The translations under genes and the position numbers were made by a program. From a virus, in the IMG/VR virus record IMGVR_UViG_3300046000_004057, positions 1 to 27,813 of that record: DNA of 27,813 bases; one strand, written 5' to 3'. Below the pieces are notes generated by a model. That model did not search any database. It saw only the letters and a list, made by a program, of their open reading frames with translations, and was not told where the DNA came from. This document shows positions 14,860-27,813 of the stretch, piece after piece; the first letter of the stretch is position 1; every line of letters starts with the position of its first letter.

Positions 14860-14874
14860 GTTATCTATAAATAT
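14860..14874 (-). promoter_or_regulatory. Late-promoter-like element before the tail tube gene
   Basis: The coding strand reads ATATTTATAGATAAC, identical over 15 bases to the element before the superoxide dismutase gene on the other strand. The TATTTAT core begins 45 bases before the gp19 ATG, inside the 81-base gap. Repetition before two unrelated genes, oriented with each, is the basis for calling it a promoter. Confidence 0.55.
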
Positions 14875-15870: not shown

Positions 15871-18800
15871 TTAGATATTTTCGAATGATGCTCCTGTCGG
15901 AGTAATGTAGAATGTGATATCGATGAATTCCAACGCTCTTGTTGGTTTAACATAAATTGATCCTACCAATCTATTATTATCTAAATCTTCAGGTGAGTTC
16001 GATACAGTTACTCTGAAATCATATAAACCTCTATCTCTTCTGATTGAATCCAAGATTGGATTAACCGCATCTAAGAATTGTTGTCTTACGATATCATCGT
16101 TTTGTTCAAACAATAATCTCACAGAAACCGCAGATATCAACTTACGTGCTTGTAATAACAATCTTCTGACATTGATTCTATCAAGAGCCGATTGTTTAAC
16201 TTGTAGAGTTTTATTACCCCAAATTACAGTACCAACATCAGAGAAAGTTGCGATTGGGTTAATTCTACCTTCATACAATACATCTCTATCTTCTTGTGAT
16301 AGTTTCTTTCTTGCTTTAACCGCATTTACGATACCTCTTGTATAACCCGCAGTTGCGAACCAAGGGAAAGCGATATTATCAGTCAACGCCAAGTTTCTTG
16401 TTACCTCAGCAGTTGGTGGAATGTATATTTGTGTATTGTTAACCGTATCTCTTGTTAATACCCAAGGGTAGTAAGTAGCCGTGTAGTTAGAATCAATACC
16501 TGAGTTATATATGTTATCAACCGCTTCTTGTGGTAGAATTTGATCTTGGTCAATACCCGTTGTTGGTGTGAATAAATCGTAATCAGGTGTTGTTACAATA
16601 TAAATCGAATCCGCTCTGTCTAACTCAACCATCGTGATTGCGTTTTCAGTTAAGTTTGAATTATTAACATAATCAATACCAGGAGTAACGAACACATTTA
16701 TATTTACCGCTTCAGGGTTTGAGAAGGTTTTAATACCTAATAGGTATGCGTAGTAGTCAGTATTTGCCCAATCAACCGAGTTTTGTTCCACGGTGATATT
16801 TCTAAATAACCCTTGACCTGTTGCGGTTGGGTATCTGTCAGAAGTACAAGCCCCTTTCTTATATCCAGACGCTCCGAGTACGAATCTGTCTTCATTTGTT
16901 CTTGATTCTCTGTATATATCCCAACCATCAAAACCACCGTAAGGTAATACTGTGAATTTTCTTGCGAAAACTCTATAGTAAGGATTTTCTTGATCTTCAG
17001 GATCGGATTGGAAAATAGCATCCCCAACCTCAAACGCTGATGTTCCACTTGTAAAGTAACTATTAGATATAGTAACCGCACTAGCCTCTTTATCCATATG
17101 GAAACCTTTTGTTTGGTAATTCCAATTATCAAAATCATTAGTAGTACAGAAACTCAAAGGAATTTGCTTACCTTTATATTCTAAGAAGTCAGAATCAATA
17201 CCAATCTTATCAGAGAAACCTAAATAAGTTCTTCTAACATTATCTCCTGAAGATGTTGTTGAATTGTCCGCTCCGTTACTAGTTCCGAAAGGGGGGTTAT
17301 AAACAACTTCACCTGGGAAGTTATATTTGGTTTTGTAGATTGCGAATGGTGGTGTTACTCCACTTGTGTATTCTCTCATTACATAACCCTGAAATCCGCA
17401 AGGAAGTGCGTCAATCGGAGCATTTTCATTAACCTCAACCATAATGTATTTTGAAAGTAATGCGTATTCACCATTAGATGAACCTATTTTCTTAGCAATA
17501 TAGTTATTAAGATTTGGATCCATTGAGCAGTTTGTATATTTCTCAATAACAACAGGATTTGAATCCGTATCATAGAAATCTCTAACTAATACATCAAATG
17601 TACCATTCCCGAATGACATATTCGCCAATGATATTTTAACTTCTGTGTTTGCCGCATTACCGTCAGAAATTAATATGAATTTAAATAAGTCATATATAGA
17701 GTTACCTCGTAATTCAGATACAATCCAAGGTGTTGATGGTGTTTGATATCTCTCTAAGTAATTACCTATTGATGTAACATTTAAACTTCTTGCGTCGTCC
17801 AAAGCAATTAAATCACAACTTAATCCTCTGATGTAACCTTTATTATATGCCCATCTTAACATTGATGAATATCTTTCCTCAACAAAAAGAGGGAAGTCAG
17901 TTCTTGATTTATCAAAGTTTCCAATACCAAATACTTTTGTGATGTAGTTTGAATTTGACTCATCCATTGATGTTTCAAATTGGAAGGTTTGACTATTTTT
18001 AGTAATACCTGAAATTTTGAATGTTGAGAATGGGTTCTTAGTAACCGCAGAATACGATCCTGTACAAATCATATTAACGTCTGATGTTCCCGATACTTGA
18101 TAAACAGGACCATTGTCTGAACTGTAAGTTGCGATACCTCTTGACCTTAATGTAGATACAACAACATTTTCATATTCTGTAAATGACACACCACTGAATT
18201 TTTGTATACGTAACTCACCCCAAGTCTTCCAATAAGTATCCCCACCTTGTTTTAATAAAGCTTGACCACTCTGTTGGTTAATACAAAACGAGAATCCACT
18301 ATAAGTTCCATCACCATTATTAGCAAACGTCGCATAATACCAAGGGTCATTTAACGGACTTGTTAATGTATTACCTGACAAAGGTATACTCGGAACTCCG
18401 AAAGCGTTTGTTTCTCCTGTATATGTTGTCGATAAAGTAGCATAAGTCGCGTCTGTTGATGAACCCCAATAAACAATTTTAGGTATATCAGTAGCCGACC
18501 CCGATAAATTAACAACATAATCAACCAAACTGAAAATCCAATTATTAATATCTTCTCTAATACTTGACGTACTTCCATCAAACAACTGATATGGTATGTC
18601 AAGTAAATTTAAGATGTCGGCAGGAAAATCCGCATCATTTAAAGCATATGTATAATCAGAAAATTTTGTTCCTGTTGTATCACCAATCGCGCTAAATTCA
18701 ATTTGATCAGCAAAACTTGTGGATCCGGTCGGAGCAATGGTTGATGAATCAACATTTGCAATTGTTTTTATTGACCAAGATGGTCCCGCATCATAACCAG

Positions 18801-19095
18801 ATAATCCTAATATCCTTGATACGAATAATTGGTTAGATTGTTGTAAATATGATTTAGCAATGTATGCTGCCTCATATTTAGGAATTTGTGTATTCACAAA
18901 CTTTTCTGGTGATGTTCCACCAAATATTGTTGTGAATTCGTCAAAATTTTTGACGAATATAGGTTCAAATGCAGGTCCTTTTAATGTTTCCCCCACAATA
19001 CCTAATGTTGTGATACCAACACTTGAGGCTACGAAGCTTAAATCAACTTCTGATGTGTAAACCCCAGGTGAAACGAATACTTTTGTATTTGCCAT
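15871..19095 (-). CDS. 18: Tail sheath protein (gp18-like), enlarged
   Basis: This 1074-residue protein has a typical sheath N-terminus (MANTKVFVSPGVYTSEVDLS, then GIVGETLKGPAFEP) and C-terminus. The C-terminal part includes FATAGYTRGIVNAVKARKKL, INPIATFSDVGTVIWGNKTL, RRLLLQARKLISAVSVRLLF and LEFIDITFYITPTG. These core domains polymerise around the tube and contract. T4 gp18 has 659 residues, so roughly 400 extra residues lie in the middle (about residues 100-850). Those regions correspond to surface-exposed protrusion domains in known sheaths. The ATG at 19095 has no Shine-Dalgarno. An AT-rich promoter-like element lies about 39 bases upstream in the divergent gap with the ribbon-helix-helix gene. 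The assignment is firm; the role of the extra domains is unknown. Confidence 0.93.
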   Translation of the reverse strand: MANTKVFVSPGVYTSEVDLSFVASSVGITTLGIVGETLKGPAFEPIFVKNFDEFTTIFGGTSPEKFVNTQIPKYEAAYIAKSYLQQSNQLFVSRILGLSGYDAGPSWSIKTIANVDSSTIAPTGSTSFADQIEFSAIGDTTGTKFSDYTYALNDADFPADILNLLDIPYQLFDGSTSSIREDINNWIFSLVDYVVNLSGSATDIPKIVYWGSSTDATYATLSTTYTGETNAFGVPSIPLSGNTLTSPLNDPWYYATFANNGDGTYSGFSFCINQQSGQALLKQGGDTYWKTWGELRIQKFSGVSFTEYENVVVSTLRSRGIATYSSDNGPVYQVSGTSDVNMICTGSYSAVTKNPFSTFKISGITKNSQTFQFETSMDESNSNYITKVFGIGNFDKSRTDFPLFVEERYSSMLRWAYNKGYIRGLSCDLIALDDARSLNVTSIGNYLERYQTPSTPWIVSELRGNSIYDLFKFILISDGNAANTEVKISLANMSFGNGTFDVLVRDFYDTDSNPVVIEKYTNCSMDPNLNNYIAKKIGSSNGEYALLSKYIMVEVNENAPIDALPCGFQGYVMREYTSGVTPPFAIYKTKYNFPGEVVYNPPFGTSNGADNSTTSSGDNVRRTYLGFSDKIGIDSDFLEYKGKQIPLSFCTTNDFDNWNYQTKGFHMDKEASAVTISNSYFTSGTSAFEVGDAIFQSDPEDQENPYYRVFARKFTVLPYGGFDGWDIYRESRTNEDRFVLGASGYKKGACTSDRYPTATGQGLFRNITVEQNSVDWANTDYYAYLLGIKTFSNPEAVNINVFVTPGIDYVNNSNLTENAITMVELDRADSIYIVTTPDYDLFTPTTGIDQDQILPQEAVDNIYNSGIDSNYTATYYPWVLTRDTVNNTQIYIPPTAEVTRNLALTDNIAFPWFATAGYTRGIVNAVKARKKLSQEDRDVLYEGRINPIATFSDVGTVIWGNKTLQVKQSALDRINVRRLLLQARKLISAVSVRLLFEQNDDIVRQQFLDAVNPILDSIRRDRGLYDFRVTVSNSPEDLDNNRLVGSIYVKPTRALEFIDITFYITPTGASFENI

Positions 19096-20417: not shown

Positions 20418-20933
20418 TTATAATCCTCTAAATTCGTTTTCACTTACAGGTGTAGCAATTATAGTCCTGTAAAAGGGTTTGTAACCCGCATATGTGTGTT
20501 TATTATCTGAAACAATACGACCATCATCGGCAACCGAATAGTATCTAACTCTTGTTTCAGTTTCATAATAACCAATATAATCACCCATCGCTATATCAAT
20601 ACCCAATTCATCCAAATGTTTTTGGTATACCGATATTCTCGCGTTTCCAGGTTCGGTTTGTTCAATTTTTGAATTACCCAAGTTTTTTGATGTTGGTGGT
20701 TGTATTTGTAAATACGCCTTAAATTCAACAGGAGGTTTAAATTGTACACCATCGGAACTTACCTCACCATAAACATCGTCTTTCTTTGTTCTATGTCTAT
20801 CAATGCTATATAAAACCATTGTGAAATTCATATCACCCTCAAGCCATTCAGACCCCATTGAGATGTCCAATGAGTAATCCTCCGCTCCGAAGAACTTGCC
20901 TAACCTAGTTATGGGAATTCTTGACTTACTCAT
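20418..20933 (-). CDS. gp14-like neck protein (tentative)
   Basis: This 171-residue protein begins MSKSRIPITRLGKFFGAEDY. Its later part GDYIGYYETETRVRYYSVAD and then YKPFYRTIIATPVSENEF is loosely like T4 gp14, which has a comparable GDLIYFP...EI-x-WV-x-P strand pair. Position, just before the gp15-like gene in the same transcript, fits a neck or head-completion role. It is shorter than T4 gp14 (256 residues). The start codon overlaps the stop of the GIY-YIG gene by eight bases, so its translation may be coupled to that gene. An alternative is a generic head-tail joining protein. Confidence 0.45.
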   Translation of the reverse strand: MSKSRIPITRLGKFFGAEDYSLDISMGSEWLEGDMNFTMVLYSIDRHRTKKDDVYGEVSSDGVQFKPPVEFKAYLQIQPPTSKNLGNSKIEQTEPGNARISVYQKHLDELGIDIAMGDYIGYYETETRVRYYSVADDGRIVSDNKHTYAGYKPFYRTIIATPVSENEFRGL

Positions 20934-21693
20934 TTTTATACTTGAATTTATACCCTCCGGCAGTTTTATATTTTTTTTTCAAAACGCTACATATACTACT
21001 AATCGGTATACCTAAATTATTTCCGGCTTCCGAAATACTTTCCCATTCTTTTATTGGTTCATTATCTAATGTCAATTGTATAATTGATTTTCTTTTTGTT
21101 TTCATAAAAGTTTCTGAGTGTTTTTTACCATAAAAACCATTATTCTCACCAAAACGAGATTCACTCATTTTTTTCTTTACGTCATCACTCATTTTCACAC
21201 CCGTTTTACTTTTACTAATTTTTAATTTAGTAATTTCAGATAAACTACCTTTTTTCTTACCTTTATATGGGTTACTATCACTCATTTTCTTTTTAGTATT
21301 TTCACTTATTTTTTTACCTATAAGAGATTTACGAATATTTTCTTTATGTTCGTATGATTTTTCTTTACCTAAATGAGAAACACTTATTTTATTTTTAGTT
21401 TCCTCACTATGTTGTCTATTAAACATTGTTCCATCAGTACCACCAAAAGATATATTGTAACCAATACTTTTATCGGTGGAATTATTTATCGTTATGTAAT
21501 GTTTTTCATAATAATTTAATTCGTCCTGAGATTCACATATTTGTAAAATTTCTTTTTTAAAATTTTCTTTACCGTATTTTTTTATCGCAAGTTTTATTAA
21601 ATCACCGGAACCTAAATACCCTGATTTATTATTTTTATCTTGACCTATATAGATTTTATTATTAACGATATTTGTTATTTTATATATTACCAT
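20926..21693 (-). CDS. Free-standing GIY-YIG homing endonuclease with NUMOD repeats
   Basis: This 255-residue protein begins MVIYKITNIVNNKIYIGQDK, the GIY-YIG core (IYK...YIG at about residues 3-17), followed by GYLGSG, IKKYGKENFKKEIL and the catalytic-type glutamate in YYEKHYI (E63). Residues about 90-195 hold several NUMOD3-type DNA-binding repeats (HSEETKNKIS, SENTKKKMSDSNPYKG, SDDVKKKMSESRFGENN, with GFYGKKHSE). Residues about 203-252 look like a NUMOD1 helix-turn-helix (EWESISEAGNNLGIPISSIC and GGYKFKY). These are selfish nucleases of the SegA type, which spread by cutting uninterrupted sites. It is not inside an intron: its stop overlaps the gp14-like start, and its own start sits at a divergent strand switch. 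Family identity is firm; activity is unproven. The gene is very rich in Lys and Asn. Confidence 0.88.
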   Translation of the reverse strand: MVIYKITNIVNNKIYIGQDKNNKSGYLGSGDLIKLAIKKYGKENFKKEILQICESQDELNYYEKHYITINNSTDKSIGYNISFGGTDGTMFNRQHSEETKNKISVSHLGKEKSYEHKENIRKSLIGKKISENTKKKMSDSNPYKGKKKGSLSEITKLKISKSKTGVKMSDDVKKKMSESRFGENNGFYGKKHSETFMKTKRKSIIQLTLDNEPIKEWESISEAGNNLGIPISSICSVLKKKYKTAGGYKFKYKNE

Positions 21694-21726: not shown

Positions 21727-21741
21727 ATTATTGATAAATAT
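21727..21741 (-). promoter_or_regulatory. Late-promoter-like element before the GIY-YIG gene
   Basis: The coding strand reads ATATTTATCAATAAT, matching the shared element at 12 of 15 positions. The TATTTAT core begins 47 bases before the ATG at 21693. It faces a second element for the helicase gene about one base away, so the gap looks like a divergent promoter pair. Confidence 0.4.
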
Positions 21742-21756
21742 ACATTTATTTGTTAT
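21742..21756 (+). promoter_or_regulatory. Late-promoter-like element before the helicase gene
   Basis: The sequence ACATTTATTTGTTAT is a degenerate match (CATTTAT core) pointing to the helicase. It lies downstream of the TTG at 21731 and 33 bases upstream of the TTG at 21776, favouring the later TTG as the true start. Confidence 0.25.
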
Positions 21757-21775
21757 TTTTACTAAAAAGTTATCA

Positions 21776-23530
21776 TTGGAAAGTTCCGCAATTTTTGAAC
21801 AGAAGGCGTTAGAGATATTAAATACTTACGAGGGAGGGAATAACTATATCCTTAAGTTAAAACAACAACAACAAAATAATAAGAAGTTTTACCCAACAAG
21901 ATCACAATCAGATTATATTATTACTTATCATACCGAGACACCAAAAATAGCGAGAAGATGGGTTGATTTGGACCCATACTTCGCAAAGAAATTTGCCGAT
22001 GAAAAGTTATTCAGGGAAATACCTGATAAGATATGGGTTGAGAAATTATTAATTGAGAAAGAAAAGTCGTATCATATTTGGGGTAAGTTTTTTGAGAGTG
22101 AGGAGATTCACGATATATGGATGCCGAAAGGTGCGTTAATTAAAACCCACACAACAGAGAAGGTTGATATTGATTATACAAAATATTCCCATCGTCCCCC
22201 ACTTACACACCAAATAGAGGCAATAGATAAACTTGCGGGTAGTAAAAGATATATTCTCGCAGATGATATGGGTTTGGGTAAAACAACCTCAACGATTATC
22301 GCCGCATTAGAAACGGGAGCTAAAAAAGTTTTAATCATTTGTCCCGCATCGTTAAAATTAAATTGGGAAAGAGAGATACGTAATTACACGGACAAGAGTG
22401 TTTATATATGTGAGGGTAAACATTTCTCATCCGAAGAGGACTTTGTGATTATTAATTATGACATCATAAAAAACTTTCACGATATAAAGGACAAAGAAAA
22501 TTCACAGATATTAAAGGCGGGTTTTGATTTGGTTGTTATTGACGAGGCTCATTACATAAAGAACGCACAAGCCCAACGAACCAAATTAATAAACAATTTT
22601 GTTAAAGATGTTAAGAGATTATGGTTATTAACCGGTACTCCGATTACATCTCGTCCAATAGATTATTTTAACTTATTGAGTTTGGTTGAATCACCCGTTG
22701 CTCAGAATTGGATGGCGTATGTTATTAGATTTTGTGAGGGTTATCAATTTAGAGCGGGTCAAAGAAAGGTTTGGAATGTATCGGGGGCATCAAATTTGGA
22801 GGAACTAAGAGACAGAACATCAAAACAAATATTACGTAGATTAAAAACTGATGTGTTAGATTTACCTGACAAACTAATTAACCCCGTATATTTGAGATTG
22901 AAATCAAAGATGTATGAGGAGTTAATGGGTGAATACTACGATTGGTATAACAATAATAAGGAGGAGTCGTCATCATTAACAATACAATTTTCAAAGTTAA
23001 TGAAGGTTAGACAAACAATTGCCGATGAGAAAGTTGCGTCAACAATAGAACTTGCCGAAAATATTATTGAGCAAGGTAAGAAGGTTATCATCTTTAGTAA
23101 CTTCACCGAACCATTAAAGAGAATACACGAACATTTCGGAAAACAATCCGTATATTTGGATGGGTCAACCTCAAAATTTGGAAGACAAAAGGCGGTTGAT
23201 GACTTTCAGGATAACGAAAAGATAATGGTGTTTTGTGGGAATATTAAGGCAGCAGGGGTTGGTATTACATTAACATCTGCCGAAGTAGTAATTATGAATG
23301 ATTTATCGTTTGTCCCGTCTGACCATAGCCAGGCAGAGGATAGAGCATATCGTTACGGACAAAAAAATAATGTATTAGTATATTATCCGATATTTGAAAA
23401 CACAATAGAGGGTGTCATATATGATATGTTAATTAAAAAGAAAGGAATTTTTGAAACGGTTATGGGTGACAATATCAACAGGGGGGATTTGGTGGAAGAG
23501 ATGCTTAATTCAATCAACAATGTCGGGTAA
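21776..23530 (+). CDS. SNF2-family (superfamily 2) DNA helicase/translocase
   Basis: The gene encodes about 584 residues from the TTG at 21776. The open frame continues upstream to another TTG at 21731, but no ATG exists before the helicase core. Counting from 21731, the motifs are: Walker A LADDMGLGKTTSTI (about 177-190), motif Ia LIICPASLKLNWERE, motif II DEAH (271-274), motif III TGTPITSRP (301-309), motif V-like AAGVGITLTSAE (507-518) and motif VI QAEDRAYRYGQ (534-544). The combination of DEAH, TGTP and QAEDRAYR-x-GQ is the SNF2/HepA group, ATP-driven double-stranded DNA translocases. In phages such proteins may act in recombination, replication-fork remodelling or clearing of proteins from DNA. 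The N-terminus (FEQKALEILNTYEGGNNYIL and a Gln-run) precedes the motor. It is the first gene of the plus block. Confidence 0.9.
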   Translation: MESSAIFEQKALEILNTYEGGNNYILKLKQQQQNNKKFYPTRSQSDYIITYHTETPKIARRWVDLDPYFAKKFADEKLFREIPDKIWVEKLLIEKEKSYHIWGKFFESEEIHDIWMPKGALIKTHTTEKVDIDYTKYSHRPPLTHQIEAIDKLAGSKRYILADDMGLGKTTSTIIAALETGAKKVLIICPASLKLNWEREIRNYTDKSVYICEGKHFSSEEDFVIINYDIIKNFHDIKDKENSQILKAGFDLVVIDEAHYIKNAQAQRTKLINNFVKDVKRLWLLTGTPITSRPIDYFNLLSLVESPVAQNWMAYVIRFCEGYQFRAGQRKVWNVSGASNLEELRDRTSKQILRRLKTDVLDLPDKLINPVYLRLKSKMYEELMGEYYDWYNNNKEESSSLTIQFSKLMKVRQTIADEKVASTIELAENIIEQGKKVIIFSNFTEPLKRIHEHFGKQSVYLDGSTSKFGRQKAVDDFQDNEKIMVFCGNIKAAGVGITLTSAEVVIMNDLSFVPSDHSQAEDRAYRYGQKNNVLVYYPIFENTIEGVIYDMLIKKKGIFETVMGDNINRGDLVEEMLNSINNVG

Positions 23531-23545
23531 TTTAAAGATTACTGG

Positions 23546-23560
23546 ATATTTATAGATAAC
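23546..23560 (+). promoter_or_regulatory. Late-promoter-like element before the superoxide dismutase fusion gene
   Basis: ATATTTATAGATAAC is identical to the element before the tail tube gene, here on the plus strand. The TATTTAT core begins 41 bases before the ATG at 23588, in a 57-base gap. Confidence 0.55.
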
Positions 23561-23587: not shown

Positions 23588-25123
23588 ATGAAAAAAATAG
23601 AAAACAAAATTAAAATATTAACAGAGAAGATAAAGGATCAAAACGACACGAAAAACGAAATACTTTTTTTAAATGAAATGAAAAAAATAGGAATAGAGAA
23701 ATTACCTTATTCCTACTCAGCCTTAAAACAATTCATAGATCCGGAAACAATGTCTTACCATTATAATAATCATTATAAGGGTTATGTTGATAAACTAAAT
23801 GACGCACTTAGTAAGAAAAATTACGGTGACTTAGATTTAGAACAGATTGTCAGAACAATTAATAAGTTTGACAAGACAATTAGGAATAACGCCGGAGGTG
23901 CTTTCAATCACGCTCTTTTTTGGAAAATGTTATCCCCAACCGAACAGAAATGTGGTGGTAAGATATTAGCCAAAATCAAAAAAGATTTTAAGTCGTTTAG
24001 AGAATTTAAAACGGAATTTGAAACCAAATCAAAAACCAATTTTGGTAGTGGTTGGGTTTGGTTGGTTCTAACTAAAAGAGGGTCTCTTAAAATTATGACA
24101 ACCCCTAACCAAGATAATCCACTTATGAATATTATTGATAGTGGTGGTTATCCTTTATTGGGGTTAGATTTGTGGGAACACGCTTATTATTTAAAATACA
24201 GAAACAAAAAAGACGAATACATTAAAAACTTTTGGAAAGCGGTTAATTGGGAATTTGTAAATAAATTATTTGAAATGAAGGTATTTTCAAAGATTAATGA
24301 GACAACTATGTTAAAACAAGTTATTACTGAGTCAGTGTCAGAATCTTGTTCAAAATCAGATAATGAGGCAATTAGATTCATATTTAATGTCAATCCCATA
24401 ATAAAACAAATATATAGAGCCGGTATTGATTCGGCACTTAAGAGTGTTTTTAGTGAGAATTACTATGAAAGGGGTGAAGCCGGTGGTGGTGAAATGTCAG
24501 GGGTTTATAATTTAGAAGGGGAAGGTAGATCTGTTTTAAATAAAATGAATACCAACTACTCTTGTTTTTGTATTCTAATGAAGGATATAAACAAGTTATT
24601 ATCATCTTTAAATCAACCAACATTAGATTTGATTGGTCAAACCCCTAAGAAACAAATTGAGGAAGTTAATAGAATGGTCAGCATTATTGACCAATTTAAA
24701 TTCAGAATATTCGCAACCAAATCAAAAACATTTCAAAATATATTATCCACCTTATCTCAAAATAATAAACTTGGTGATGAAAGAGAGGATAAGACCGTCG
24801 TTAATTTAAAAAAGATATTCGGTGATAAGAATGTTATCAAAGTTGGTAAGTTAGGTGATAAGGATGATATGATTGGTGGGATTGATGCTGAGATAATAAT
24901 CGATGGTAAAAAGAATACCGCACAAATTAAACCATTTAAATATTTTACAACTAAGGATGGTAAATATACCATTTTTGGAACCGGAAATGTTAAATCATAT
25001 AAAACCGATTTATTAATATTCATAAAATATAACAATGATATGTTAATATTTGATAACAATAAAACTAAAATAGTCGGTGGTAATTTTGTTTTTGATGAAA
25101 GTTCATTAATTTATCCAAAATAA
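23588..25123 (+). CDS. Mn-type superoxide dismutase fused to a PD-(D/E)XK-nuclease-like C-terminus
   Basis: This 511-residue protein has two parts. Residues about 38-230 are a full Mn/Fe superoxide dismutase: LPYSYSALKQFIDPETMSYH, then NNAGGAFNHALFWKML, NFGSGWVWLVLTKRG, NQDNPLM, and LLGLDLWEHAYYLKYRN. All four metal ligands are present (His58, His108, Asp194, His198). AGG before the second His and Gln175 in NQDNPL are the marks of the manganese type. It should convert superoxide to oxygen and hydrogen peroxide. Residues 1-37 add a charged helix. The C-terminal 270 residues are not dismutase. Near residues 405-490 they contain VIKVGKLGDKDDMIGGID, a strand and TAQIKPF, resembling the D-x(n)-Q/E-x-K core of PD-(D/E)XK nucleases (Asp433, Gln446, Lys448). 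Residues about 240-400 are unassigned. Dismutase identity is firm; the nuclease assignment is inference. No signal peptide is present, so it acts in the cytoplasm or is packaged. Confidence 0.88.
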   Translation: MKKIENKIKILTEKIKDQNDTKNEILFLNEMKKIGIEKLPYSYSALKQFIDPETMSYHYNNHYKGYVDKLNDALSKKNYGDLDLEQIVRTINKFDKTIRNNAGGAFNHALFWKMLSPTEQKCGGKILAKIKKDFKSFREFKTEFETKSKTNFGSGWVWLVLTKRGSLKIMTTPNQDNPLMNIIDSGGYPLLGLDLWEHAYYLKYRNKKDEYIKNFWKAVNWEFVNKLFEMKVFSKINETTMLKQVITESVSESCSKSDNEAIRFIFNVNPIIKQIYRAGIDSALKSVFSENYYERGEAGGGEMSGVYNLEGEGRSVLNKMNTNYSCFCILMKDINKLLSSLNQPTLDLIGQTPKKQIEEVNRMVSIIDQFKFRIFATKSKTFQNILSTLSQNNKLGDEREDKTVVNLKKIFGDKNVIKVGKLGDKDDMIGGIDAEIIIDGKKNTAQIKPFKYFTTKDGKYTIFGTGNVKSYKTDLLIFIKYNNDMLIFDNNKTKIVGGNFVFDESSLIYPK

Positions 25124-25125
25124 AG

Positions 25126-25140
25126 ATATTTATAGAAAAC
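25126..25140 (+). promoter_or_regulatory. Late-promoter-like element before the gp13-like gene
   Basis: ATATTTATAGAAAAC matches the shared element at 14 of 15 positions. The core begins 21 bases before the ATG and lies two bases after the dismutase-fusion stop. If it is a promoter, the leader would be very short. Confidence 0.48.
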
Positions 25141-25147
25141 TATTTTT

Positions 25148-26272
25148 ATGGCAACTATACCAGAACCGGAAAGAACCAAAATTTTTACACAAGTTAAACA
25201 CCTTTTGGGTGCTCCCGTTAGATCGGTTGAGATTGAAGATGAACAGATGGACTCTTTAATGGACTTCTCGATTCAGGATTATGGACAGTATGTTCAGGAT
25301 TGGTTAATTGAATCGCAATGGACATCTTTATATAATTTAAATTTGGATACTCAATCTCTATCAAGAGCGTTGATTACCAAAAGTTTAGATTGGGAAACTA
25401 GATACACTTATGCTTATTCTAAGATTGTCGGGTTACAGGCTGGTGGTGATTGGGTTTTAAAGAAGGATTATATTGAGTTGGTTAGACACCAACAAATTTA
25501 TGAAATTCCCGCAGGTAGAGAAATAAATGAATTACTATGGTTTACTCCATCAACACTTAATAATGTGTTCTTCGATCCTTGGTCATTCGGTGGATTAGGT
25601 TCAGGTGGATTAGGTGGTTCAGGAGGATTCGCTCAAATGGGAACTGCCGGTGGTTCATACTTTATGACACCCGTATTCGATATGTTACTTAGAATGCAGG
25701 AGGTTAATATCCAAAGAAGAATTATTGCCGGTGATTTAACATATAGAATAACCGCACTTCCTGATGGTAAAAAGGCAATTCACTTAATGCAGACACCAGG
25801 TGGTAAGTTTGACTTTGGTAATGCTCAAATGACACAAGGTAAGATTTGGTATTGGTATTATGAAACAGAAGGTGCCGATAGAGACAAATGTTTAAAGGAT
25901 AACCCCGATATTATTAAATTACCATCTGATGTCCCTTTTGATGAATTATCTTGGGCTGATTTAAATAACCCGTCCAAACAATGGGTGAGAAGATGGTTTG
26001 TCGCTTATGTTAAAGAAACATTAGCAAGAATTAGAGGTAAGTATAGTGGTAATCTTAAAACACCTGACTCTGAATTGACCTTAGATTATACATCATTGGC
26101 AACAGAAGCGAAAGATGAAAAAACAAAATTGATTGAGGAGTTAATTGGTGCTGAGGGTAGATTAACAAGATTAAAACCTGAAAAAGTTATGGAGAGGGAA
26201 GCTTTAATGTCTGAAAACCTAAATAAACAATTAAAATTCAGAGCATTCCCAAGACCTTTATATGTAATTTAA
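25148..26272 (+). CDS. gp13-like neck (head-completion) protein
   Basis: This 374-residue protein begins MATIPEPERTKIFTQVKHLL. Its C-terminal half has LNNPSKQWVRRWFVAYVKET followed by LARIRGKYSGNLKTPDSELT and LDYTSLATEA. A W-x-R-x-(Y/W)-F-x-A-x-x-K-E-x-L-x-x-I-R-G-K segment followed by a PDSELTLDY turn is how T4-like gp13 neck proteins end. These form the ring joined to the portal after DNA packaging. A Gly-rich loop (GGLGSGGLGGSGGFAQMGTA, residues about 152-172) is an insertion. The protein is longer than T4 gp13 (309 residues). The start is the ATG at 25148 with an AT-rich leader (CTATTTTT). It is on the opposite strand from the gp14/gp15-like genes. Confidence 0.7.
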   Translation: MATIPEPERTKIFTQVKHLLGAPVRSVEIEDEQMDSLMDFSIQDYGQYVQDWLIESQWTSLYNLNLDTQSLSRALITKSLDWETRYTYAYSKIVGLQAGGDWVLKKDYIELVRHQQIYEIPAGREINELLWFTPSTLNNVFFDPWSFGGLGSGGLGGSGGFAQMGTAGGSYFMTPVFDMLLRMQEVNIQRRIIAGDLTYRITALPDGKKAIHLMQTPGGKFDFGNAQMTQGKIWYWYYETEGADRDKCLKDNPDIIKLPSDVPFDELSWADLNNPSKQWVRRWFVAYVKETLARIRGKYSGNLKTPDSELTLDYTSLATEAKDEKTKLIEELIGAEGRLTRLKPEKVMEREALMSENLNKQLKFRAFPRPLYVI

Positions 26273-26273
26273 T

Positions 26274-26609
26274 ATGGCAATAGTAAGATCAATACCAAGA
26301 GAAAAAGTAGTTGGTGGTAGGATTGTAAGAACTTCCGAAGTTGTTGTAATATCGGAAGATAGTTACTCAACGAATGGGGAGAGTTTAATTGTTGTGAAAG
26401 ATGTTGATTTTTGTAAAATAAAATTAAACTCAGTAACCACAGACCATATAAGAATTAAATCATTAACAAACACTTTAATTATACCAGATCTTGGTAAGAT
26501 AGATGGTTTGTATGATGAAATGACTTTAAATTCTGAGTCCTGTGCCGAGTTTTATTTTGTATTAGATACTTGGTATATCACATCAAGTGATGGGTTAAAA
26601 ATGTCTTAG
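26274..26609 (+). CDS. Small beta-rich protein of unknown function, likely virion-associated
   Basis: This 111-residue protein begins MAIVRSIPREKVVGGRIVRT. It starts one base after the gp13-like stop, so it is in the same transcript. The predicted content is almost all beta strands (VVVISEDSYSTNGES, IRIKSLTNTLIIPD). The end EFYFVLDTWYITSSDGLKMS has a W-Y-I-x-S-S-D-G-x-K pattern seen in small phage structural proteins, from recollection only. It ends in a four-base convergent overlap with the DNA polymerase stop. No catalytic motif, signal peptide or membrane helix is seen. Decoration, neck-associated or fibre-type roles are possible; none is shown. Confidence 0.55.
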   Translation: MAIVRSIPREKVVGGRIVRTSEVVVISEDSYSTNGESLIVVKDVDFCKIKLNSVTTDHIRIKSLTNTLIIPDLGKIDGLYDEMTLNSESCAEFYFVLDTWYITSSDGLKMS

Positions 26610-27813
26610 ACAAATTCTTCCCACCCCTCTTCTGCGAGTTCATACATATAGTTAGGTGAAACTCCAATTCTATCCCAAAACTTAACTTCACCTTCCGACA
26701 TTGACATAACTTCCTCCAAGTCATCTTGGTCTCCAATATCAATTGGTTGTCCATTAATCAATTCACATTGTTCTTTGGTGAAAATACCTCTGTTCTCAGG
26801 GTCGGTAACCAATAATTGTTCTCTCACCTCGTCTTTAAATACAACCAATAAAGGTTCAATCTTCTTATTGAATGTGGTAATCGCTCTTGGGACATTATAT
26901 TCACCCAACATATCAGGATTATTTTCCAATTCATTGGCATCTAACAAATAACAATTGATAATAACTCCATCACCTTTCTTTTGAACATCTCCGTGAGATG
27001 ACTTGGTTCCGTTATTAACATAATAGATAACATCACCCAAATTAACTTTAATGTTATTTTGTATAGCCAATTCAAGGTATGCCATTCTACTCATAGCGTG
27101 ACCCGCCTTAGTTTTAGAATTTACCCTAACTTTATAATCGTCAATAGACATTTTTACCTTTGCTCTTTGAGCAATCTTTTTAAGAGGTATCTCTTGGTTA
27201 AATATCTTTTGTAGATATTCATAATACCACTCAATAAATTCTTGACCATTACCTTCAAGTAACATCTTAATACCCTTATCAAGGAAGTCCTCAATGTATA
27301 TCGGAAGTTTCTTTGATTTAATGGAGTTACCTGTCAACTTAACTTTACCATTGTTTTCCAATGTTGCGTAATTCTTACGAGAAAGATTTATACAGGACTT
27401 CCAAGTTCCATCACAATCCAATCCCATCTCACCTTTCATAAACAAATCATTATATTCAGCAACATCGGCATCGTAACCGTGATATTCTTTACCCTCCTTA
27501 ACCAACCAATTAAGACCTTTACCGATATAAACCCTGTCGTCTACTCCACCATCGGGTAACGAAAAGTTAACCCCGTCCGTGTCCATTACAAGTGGCGTAT
27601 ATCCTTTCTTCATAAAGAAACTAATCATCTGACGAAGATATTGTCTACCCGTACAGGTAATCCTTTCACCTTGATTAATGTCACCCCAATTAAATACCAA
27701 CGGAGCGCTTAAAGATCCGAAGAAGGCGTTAATGAAAATCTTAATCGGTAACTGCTTTCTGTCATACGATAATGACTTTTTCTTATCAATCTTTTTGTAT
27801 TCGGAAGATAAGT
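26606..27813 (-). CDS. Family B DNA polymerase, C-terminal part (N-terminus beyond right edge)
   Basis: The open minus-strand frame covers 402 codons from the window edge to the stop at 26606. A TTG at 27700 is not a start, because coding continues upstream without a stop. Conserved palm motifs: motif B is DRKQLPIKIFINAFFGSLSA (K-x-x-x-N-x-x-x-G type), followed by FNWGDINQGERITCTGRQYL and then motif C, PLVMDTDGVNF, whose two aspartates bind the catalytic metals. In most family members motif C is DTDS; here Ser is replaced by Gly. The rest is thumb region, ending EEGWEEFV. This is the replicative phage polymerase equivalent to T4 gp43. The exonuclease domain is not in the window. It converges on the plus-strand block with a four-base stop overlap. 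Confidence 0.88.
   Translation of the reverse strand, partial: LSSEYKKIDKKKSLSYDRKQLPIKIFINAFFGSLSAPLVFNWGDINQGERITCTGRQYLRQMISFFMKKGYTPLVMDTDGVNFSLPDGGVDDRVYIGKGLNWLVKEGKEYHGYDADVAEYNDLFMKGEMGLDCDGTWKSCINLSRKNYATLENNGKVKLTGNSIKSKKLPIYIEDFLDKGIKMLLEGNGQEFIEWYYEYLQKIFNQEIPLKKIAQRAKVKMSIDDYKVRVNSKTKAGHAMSRMAYLELAIQNNIKVNLGDVIYYVNNGTKSSHGDVQKKGDGVIINCYLLDANELENNPDMLGEYNVPRAITTFNKKIEPLLVVFKDEVREQLLVTDPENRGIFTKEQCELINGQPIDIGDQDDLEEVMSMSEGEVKFWDRIGVSPNYMYELAEEGWEEFV

Follow-up and report, generated by a model that had tools for sequence, protein, structure and literature searches.

What would a tailed phage gain from a superoxide dismutase (SOD) joined in one chain to a nuclease-like region? We addressed this question for a gene in the window, which is the whole stretch of viral DNA that was analyzed (27,813 nucleotides, IMG/VR record IMGVR_UViG_3300046000_004057). 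An earlier note, made from the sequence of this stretch, had described a 511-residue reading frame with an SOD domain followed by a nuclease-like part, and the reading frame and its neighbours were as described, with a gp13 neck gene downstream (Table 1). Among relatives in IMG/VR, a helicase gene lies 5' and a gp13-like gene lies 3' of the fusion gene in every locus that has enough flanking sequence. A few of these loci have, in addition, an intervening ORF of approximately 1.1 kb or a small insertion.

We found that the fusion is genuine and has a wide distribution. When IMG/VR was scanned with the window's protein, at least 590 stretches encoding relatives were obtained, and 80 loci were kept. 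Full-length SOD-nuclease fusions were collected from at least about 85 contigs from different metagenomes, all at one shared locus. The 68 distinct full-length proteins that we aligned were 51-100% identical, and nearly all were 500-520 residues long. Compared with close relatives, the fusion gene had a dN/dS of approximately 0.06, with strong purifying selection on both domains. Because at least about 85 contigs carry the fusion, an assembly error that joined two separate genes, the artefact that the earlier note had named as a possible refutation, is excluded, and we give it practically no weight. The carriers are giant T4-like viruses that infect aquatic bacteria and form a widespread group. 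SODs had been thought rare in tailed phages, which holds for isolates but not for IMG/VR, where hundreds of stretches match. The belief that no such fusion had been described needs a similar amendment. A 501-residue SOD-nuclease fusion from an uncultured Caudovirales phage (A0A6J5L953; 51% identity over 484 columns) is already in UniProt, but it is annotated only as a superoxide dismutase. No description of an SOD-nuclease cargo arrangement was found in the portion of the literature that was searched.

The SOD domain is complete. Pfam families PF02777 (1.9e-39) and PF00081 (1.2e-21) matched residues 36-226, both above the gathering score, and the top sequence match in the PDB was S. aureus SodA (4e-56). 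The metal ligands named in the earlier note (H58, H108, D194 and H198) and the manganese-type Q175 were correctly identified, and they are invariant in all 68 full-length homologues and across 104 SOD proteins, whatever their architecture. The equivalents of the E. coli MnSOD residues H30, Y34, N80, W169, E170 and Y174, which are second-sphere or dimer residues, are also kept in the 104 distinct SOD-bearing homologues. Because the ligands, the second-sphere residues and the dimer residues are all kept, the domain is very probably catalytic. It shares with ordinary Fe/Mn SODs (S. aureus SodA, 5n56; E. coli MnSOD) the full domain, the ligands, the second-sphere Gln, the gateway His/Tyr and the dimer-bridging Glu. 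It differs from them in being phage-encoded, in having protease-type sites on both flanks and in being fused to other modules.

The C-terminal half is divided into a helical part and a final part with a predicted nuclease fold. An AlphaFold2 (AF2) model of this half, built with an alignment of 37 relatives, had a mean pLDDT of 86.3 and a pTM of 0.79. In a fold comparison, the last 120 residues (163-282 of the 282-residue model, to which the matches were restricted) resembled A. fulgidus Hjc (2wcw, Z 8.5), NhoI (7.8), I-Ssp6803I (7.7) and DpnI (6.5). The top-ranked entries were PD-(D/E)XK nucleases, and unrelated entries had Z scores of about 2.6 or less. Foldseek alone gave a weaker indication of the nuclease fold, with an E-value of 0.009 at best, and for residues 256-390, the helical part, it identified no clear counterpart in the PDB. 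The model thus points to the PD-(D/E)XK fold that the earlier note had suspected from D433, Q446 and K448. These three residues are each present in 68/68 homologues, and a fourth, E400, which had been omitted from the motif, is equally invariant. The core fold and the E...D...QxK residues are shared with archaeal Hjc, NhoI/Eco15I, I-Ssp6803I and the N-domain of DpnI, and we predict DNA cleavage as the activity. In contrast to those nucleases, to which identity is at most about 20%, the fusion has an extra helical domain and no Pfam or PHROG family; Hjc is the nearest fold, yet it is only 13% identical and has no family match.

Searches with the C-terminal half by sequence returned little. Neither Pfam nor PHROGs had a family that matched the region, a Pfam scan of 37 members gave no consistent family, and a profile search of PDB sequences with the alignment of this half yielded chance matches only. 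A scan of GTDB genomes with the same alignment found no relatives. Matches by tblastn to INPHARED were weak; the match in the 635-kb phage LR745206 was confirmed by HMM, and a match to a structural protein of CBB/GAP32 was rejected when the HMM did not confirm it.

Table 1. Positions of the features discussed in the text. Coordinates refer to the window unless a locus is named.
Feature	Coordinates	Strand	Basis
SNF2/UvsW-type helicase gene	21731..23530	+	PF00176 5e-31, phrog_62 1e-110; synteny
Late-promoter-like box ATATTTATAG of fusion gene	23546..23555	+	exact match
SOD-nuclease fusion gene, 511 aa	23588..25123	+	ORF calling; homologue set
N-terminal leader, residues 1-35, variable; interdomain linker in relatives with an extra N-terminal domain	23588..23692	+	alignment, architectures
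L11-T-E13, possible extra prohead-protease site in leader	23618..23626	+	E13 in 47/68
L28-N-E30, putative gp21-type cleavage site before SOD	23669..23677	+	E30 in 68/68
Fe/Mn superoxide dismutase domain, residues 36-229, Mn-type Gln175	23693..24274	+	Pfam, PDB match, alignment
Interdomain linker, residues 230-255	24275..24352	+	variable in alignment; low AF2 confidence
I236-N-E238, putative gp21-type cleavage site after SOD	24293..24301	+	E238 in 68/68
I246-T-E248, second putative cleavage site in linker	24323..24331	+	E248 in 67/68
Helical part, residues 256-390	24353..24757	+	AF2 model; no family or fold match
Predicted PD-(D/E)XK nuclease core, residues 391-511	24758..25120	+	AF2 and fold comparison
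E400, helix glutamate of nuclease motif	24785..24787	+	68/68
D433, nuclease motif	24884..24886	+	68/68
Q446-x-K448, nuclease motif	24923..24931	+	68/68
Late-promoter-like box of gp13 gene	25126..25135	+	exact match
gp13-like neck / head-tail adaptor gene	25148..26272	+	phrog_211 1.2e-10; synteny
ORFs with an HExxH domain of about 125 aa (TLAHEWVHAHQR...NEDEANAFA) before SOD	L247:3602-5728, L269:3596-5116, L274:3554-4669, L312:3611-5689		
Divergent stand-alone SOD-like proteins	L087:5004-5573 (Vibrio phage 2.275.O), L088:5010-5558 (PA5oct)		

The regions that flank the SOD domain have an unusual pattern of conservation. In the alignment of 68 proteins, the leader (residues 1-35) and the interdomain linker (residues 230-255) are variable except for glutamates that mostly have Leu or Ile two residues earlier. 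L/I-x-E is the cleavage motif of gp21, the prohead protease of T4, which cuts after the Glu (section 2.5 of PMC9026906). The surroundings of E30 are among the most variable regions of the protein, and residue 30 is nevertheless E, and residue 28 L or I, in 102/104 SOD proteins. In the linker, residue 236 is L or I in 60/68 and otherwise V or M, and residue 246 is I or L in 67/68. Residues 234-248 are also the stretch of lowest confidence in the full-length AF2 model, below 50. Among the 104 distinct proteins, L/I-x-E was found within 12 residues before the SOD core in 102 (36.6 expected by shuffling) and within 25 residues after it in 101 (43.4 expected); because the SOD proteins share ancestry, the comparison overstates independence, and with so short a motif it is a guide and not a P value. 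Cutting at E30 and E238 would release residues 31-238, a product as large as an ordinary SOD.

Neither gp21 nor gp23 lies in the window, which is a fragment; two related 322-kb contigs (G001 and G002) have both (gp21, PF03420, 1.5e-25 and 7.9e-25; gp23, 1e-64). Their gp23 proteins start with ...FLINE|ATSDG or HLINE|ATSDG, which is the expected gp21-type cut site. The pattern [LI][NT]E[ASGQ] occurred 2.0-2.5 times per 1000 residues in the first 45 residues of their ORFs and 0.34-0.54 times elsewhere, making it 4.6-5.8 times denser near the start in G002 and G001. Many ORFs in G002 (loci L098-L114; for example 28683-40325, 130110-130604 and 316370-317395) begin with a leader of approximately 20 residues, MKK(V/I)IRLTESDLxxIVKRIINE(Q/S) or MKYLITESKL..., that contains L/I-x-E, and these ORFs are possibly a large set of head-targeted proteins. 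A profile built from the G002 leaders fits the linkers of the fusion modestly, with a score of at least 4 in 22/68 proteins compared with 28/1360 shuffles. In phage LR745206, many ORFs (L197 and W01:100001-260000) have starts resembling M(K/R)xLKxFNES; 21% of the N-termini there fit a loose leader pattern, compared with 10.6% of shuffles.

Other architectures at the fusion locus were revealed by a scan with a divergent member. They include SOD alone (with the tail TNES...ILES), SOD with the nuclease found in the window (type 1), SOD with a second type of nuclease (type 2), SOD with domains of unknown function, and a single 873-residue protein with SOD and two type-2 nucleases. The two nuclease types are homologous (hhalign 97%, 4.7e-11) and keep the E, D and QVK residues. 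In some proteins a putative HExxH metallopeptidase domain (TLAHEWVHAHQR) lies in front of the SOD, with or without further modules, and the 35-residue leader with its L/I-x-E sites is retained as an internal linker. Most module borders have the linkers KKLNES, KPLNES, KNINES, KLMES or KKLTES; a few linkers of SOD-only proteins have TNES in place of L/I-x-ES. In two loci (L269 and L270), the partner domain is also encoded on its own by the ORF that follows, where it has the leader MKIIISESQYKLIKE.

The nuclease is also found without the SOD. In G002 relatives, the type-2 nuclease stands alone, with the leader MKITISEGQYKILSE, between gp21 and the gp22-like and gp23 genes. The nuclease-only homologue of LR745206 starts with MKKFTEYIKES, which we take to resemble the T4 capsid targeting sequence; used as a query, it found no relatives in IMG/VR. 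Because each domain occurs without the other and likely cleavage sites lie between them, the SOD and the nuclease are probably independent cargo modules. The same facts (SOD alone or with other partners, nuclease without SOD, likely cut sites between) argue against the idea in the earlier note that one chain couples dismutase to nuclease activity. The suggestion of packaging in the earlier note gains support from the conserved prohead-protease-type sites and the stand-alone nuclease relatives in the head-gene cluster. More distant SOD-like proteins are encoded by Vibrio phage 2.275.O and Pseudomonas phage PA5oct, which are also T4-like jumbo phages with gp21. The Vibrio phage protein ends with KMLDESVNIRHLINFISK, resembling the linker of the window's fusion, and the record of the PA5oct protein bears an ESI-MS/MS note, which is the sole basis for calling it a virion protein. 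These two differ from the fusion in standing alone, at 27-29% identity, with the NQDN motif lost and no nuclease.

The sequence upstream of the gene is consistent with expression late in infection. The box ATATTTATAG occurs three times in the window with zero mismatches, at 14865 (minus strand), 23546 (plus) and 25126 (plus), each time upstream of a late gene. The promoter-like element that had been described as identical to that of the tail tube gene is thus exact at the tail-tube-like, fusion and gp13 genes. The shorter form TATTTATA was present within 60 nucleotides upstream of the fusion gene in 47/67 relatives, compared with 1.0% of random 60-mers and 1.8% of shuffles, and it resembles the T4 late promoter TATAAATA. 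The conserved box and the position in a late cluster both favour the late expression that had been proposed.

The reading that we favour, with moderate confidence, is that the fusion is a late, head-packaged cargo polyprotein that is cut by gp21 and injected; we infer packaging, cleavage, injection and both enzymatic activities from the sequence patterns above. The protein would be made late and packed into the prohead. During head maturation, the prohead protease would cut after E30 and after E238 or E248, freeing a Mn-type SOD (approximately residues 31-238) and a PD-(D/E)XK nuclease-fold protein (approximately 249-511) inside the capsid. Both products would be injected into the next host along with the DNA. 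There the SOD would reduce superoxide near the incoming genome, and the nuclease would have DNA as its substrate, possibly that of the host, junctions or modified DNA. This reading requires that a nuclease active inside the head spare the phage DNA, which is a point against it. More generally, and with our judgment evenly divided, a lineage of jumbo T4-like phages may pack a modular polyprotein in which a Mn-type SOD is constant and the partners (nucleases, the putative HExxH peptidase, unknown domains) are swappable, each bordered by prohead-protease sites, such that one late gene would deliver several separate enzymes, an antioxidant among them, into the host together with the genome.

There are precedents for parts of this scheme. 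PMC9026906 and PMC3012670 describe capsid targeting, cutting and injection for the T4 internal proteins and Alt. Like the fusion, IPI-III and Alt have L/I-x-E sites in a leader or linker and belong to T4-like phages with gp21; they are expressed late, as the fusion probably is, and processing on both sides is known for the termini of Alt (PMC9026906). The fusion differs in having several enzymes in one chain, internal sites between them and an SOD as presumed cargo. The polyvalent proteins of phages and conjugative elements are likewise multidomain proteins, for which packaging and delivery together with DNA are presumed (PMC5512222), as we propose here; that paper mentions no SOD, and the domain borders of the fusion bear prohead-protease-type sites. 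For a viral SOD, the chlorovirus PBCV-1 Cu/Zn enzyme (A245R) is expressed late and packaged in virions, and lower superoxide in cells infected by the virus has been linked to it (PMC7019647). It is a precedent for a late, packaged SOD, as the one here would be, but it is of an unrelated SOD type, from a eukaryotic virus, and stands alone.

Conservation of the single chain in at least about 85 contigs would also be expected if the protein worked uncut, as a bifunctional soluble late enzyme whose SOD, as the product of an auxiliary metabolic gene, shields the replicating cell and whose nuclease acts on replication or packaging intermediates like a Holliday junction resolvase. The late promoter box fits such an enzyme, as does Hjc being the closest fold of the nuclease domain. 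However, it would have no need of invariant L/I-x-E sequences in otherwise variable linkers flanking the SOD, and the two domains are separable and shuffled in relatives. We consider this explanation unlikely. A role as a head-completion or neck component, with the nuclease finishing or trimming packaged DNA near gp13, a function that has been proposed for proteins of the T4 gp4 type, and with the SOD as a structural part, seems more doubtful still. The constant position immediately 5' of gp13, seen in nearly all loci that extend this far, and the nuclease paralogue in the head cluster, are in keeping with that role, but invariance of all the catalytic and second-sphere SOD residues is unexpected for a purely structural module. 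In addition, some relatives at the locus have SOD without nuclease, and neither PHROGs nor Pfam matched the fusion to head-completion proteins.

The earlier note had also suggested a defence or counter-defence effector that senses superoxide; the SOD would then be the sensor and would switch the nuclease. Defence systems often use nucleases as effectors, which is a general point with nothing particular to the fusion. The SOD residues are like those of an ordinary catalyst and not a sensor, the partners change and the SOD stays, and nuclease homologues without SOD and likely cleavage sites between the domains are likewise hard to combine with sensing. With the gene in a conserved late cluster and no match in PADLOC, we regard an effector of this kind as very improbable.

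If the packaged-cargo reading is correct, then tailed phages inject an antioxidant enzyme with the genome, which would suggest that large phages face a real obstacle in the superoxide present at the moment they infect. The head protease of a double-stranded DNA phage would then double as a polyprotein processor that unpacks modular cargo. Most proteins of uncultured jumbo phages have no known function, and the conserved sites offer a simple sequence test for other packaged cargo in these phages.

Several additional observations were made at these loci. In L060 (7532-8689), the fusion gene and gp13 are separated by an extra ORF of about 386 residues that starts with MKFIMSESQYNRI; such an ORF also occurs near L058, L063 and L067. 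We considered this 1.1-kb ORF of L060 as another copy of the nuclease and rejected it, as it had no match to the nuclease HMM. A stretch similar to it, ...FYWSNKGQRGCDELRLSIRFRI..., is fused to SOD in L246. Upstream in the window, on the minus strand, is a GIY-YIG/NUMOD3 homing endonuclease gene (20926-21693); among the flanking relatives it was found only in L002/L082, a near-identical contig, and it is probably a recent insertion. Downstream, also on the minus strand, a 364-residue ORF (26606-27700) partially matches phage DNA polymerase families (phrog_262, 3.9e-8), and in L232 the region 3' of gp13 contains a 755-residue ORF on the same strand. The tail sheath protein of the window (15871-19095, minus strand) has 1074 residues; its match to sheath proteins is mainly in the last 350, with approximately 700 residues unmatched. 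In G002, three ORFs after gp23 (L104, 122699-126558) start with apparent Bacteroidota-style signal peptides (for example ...SLFTMAQTSV); they are possibly phage-coded exported proteins, and the style of these peptides hints at a Bacteroidota host.
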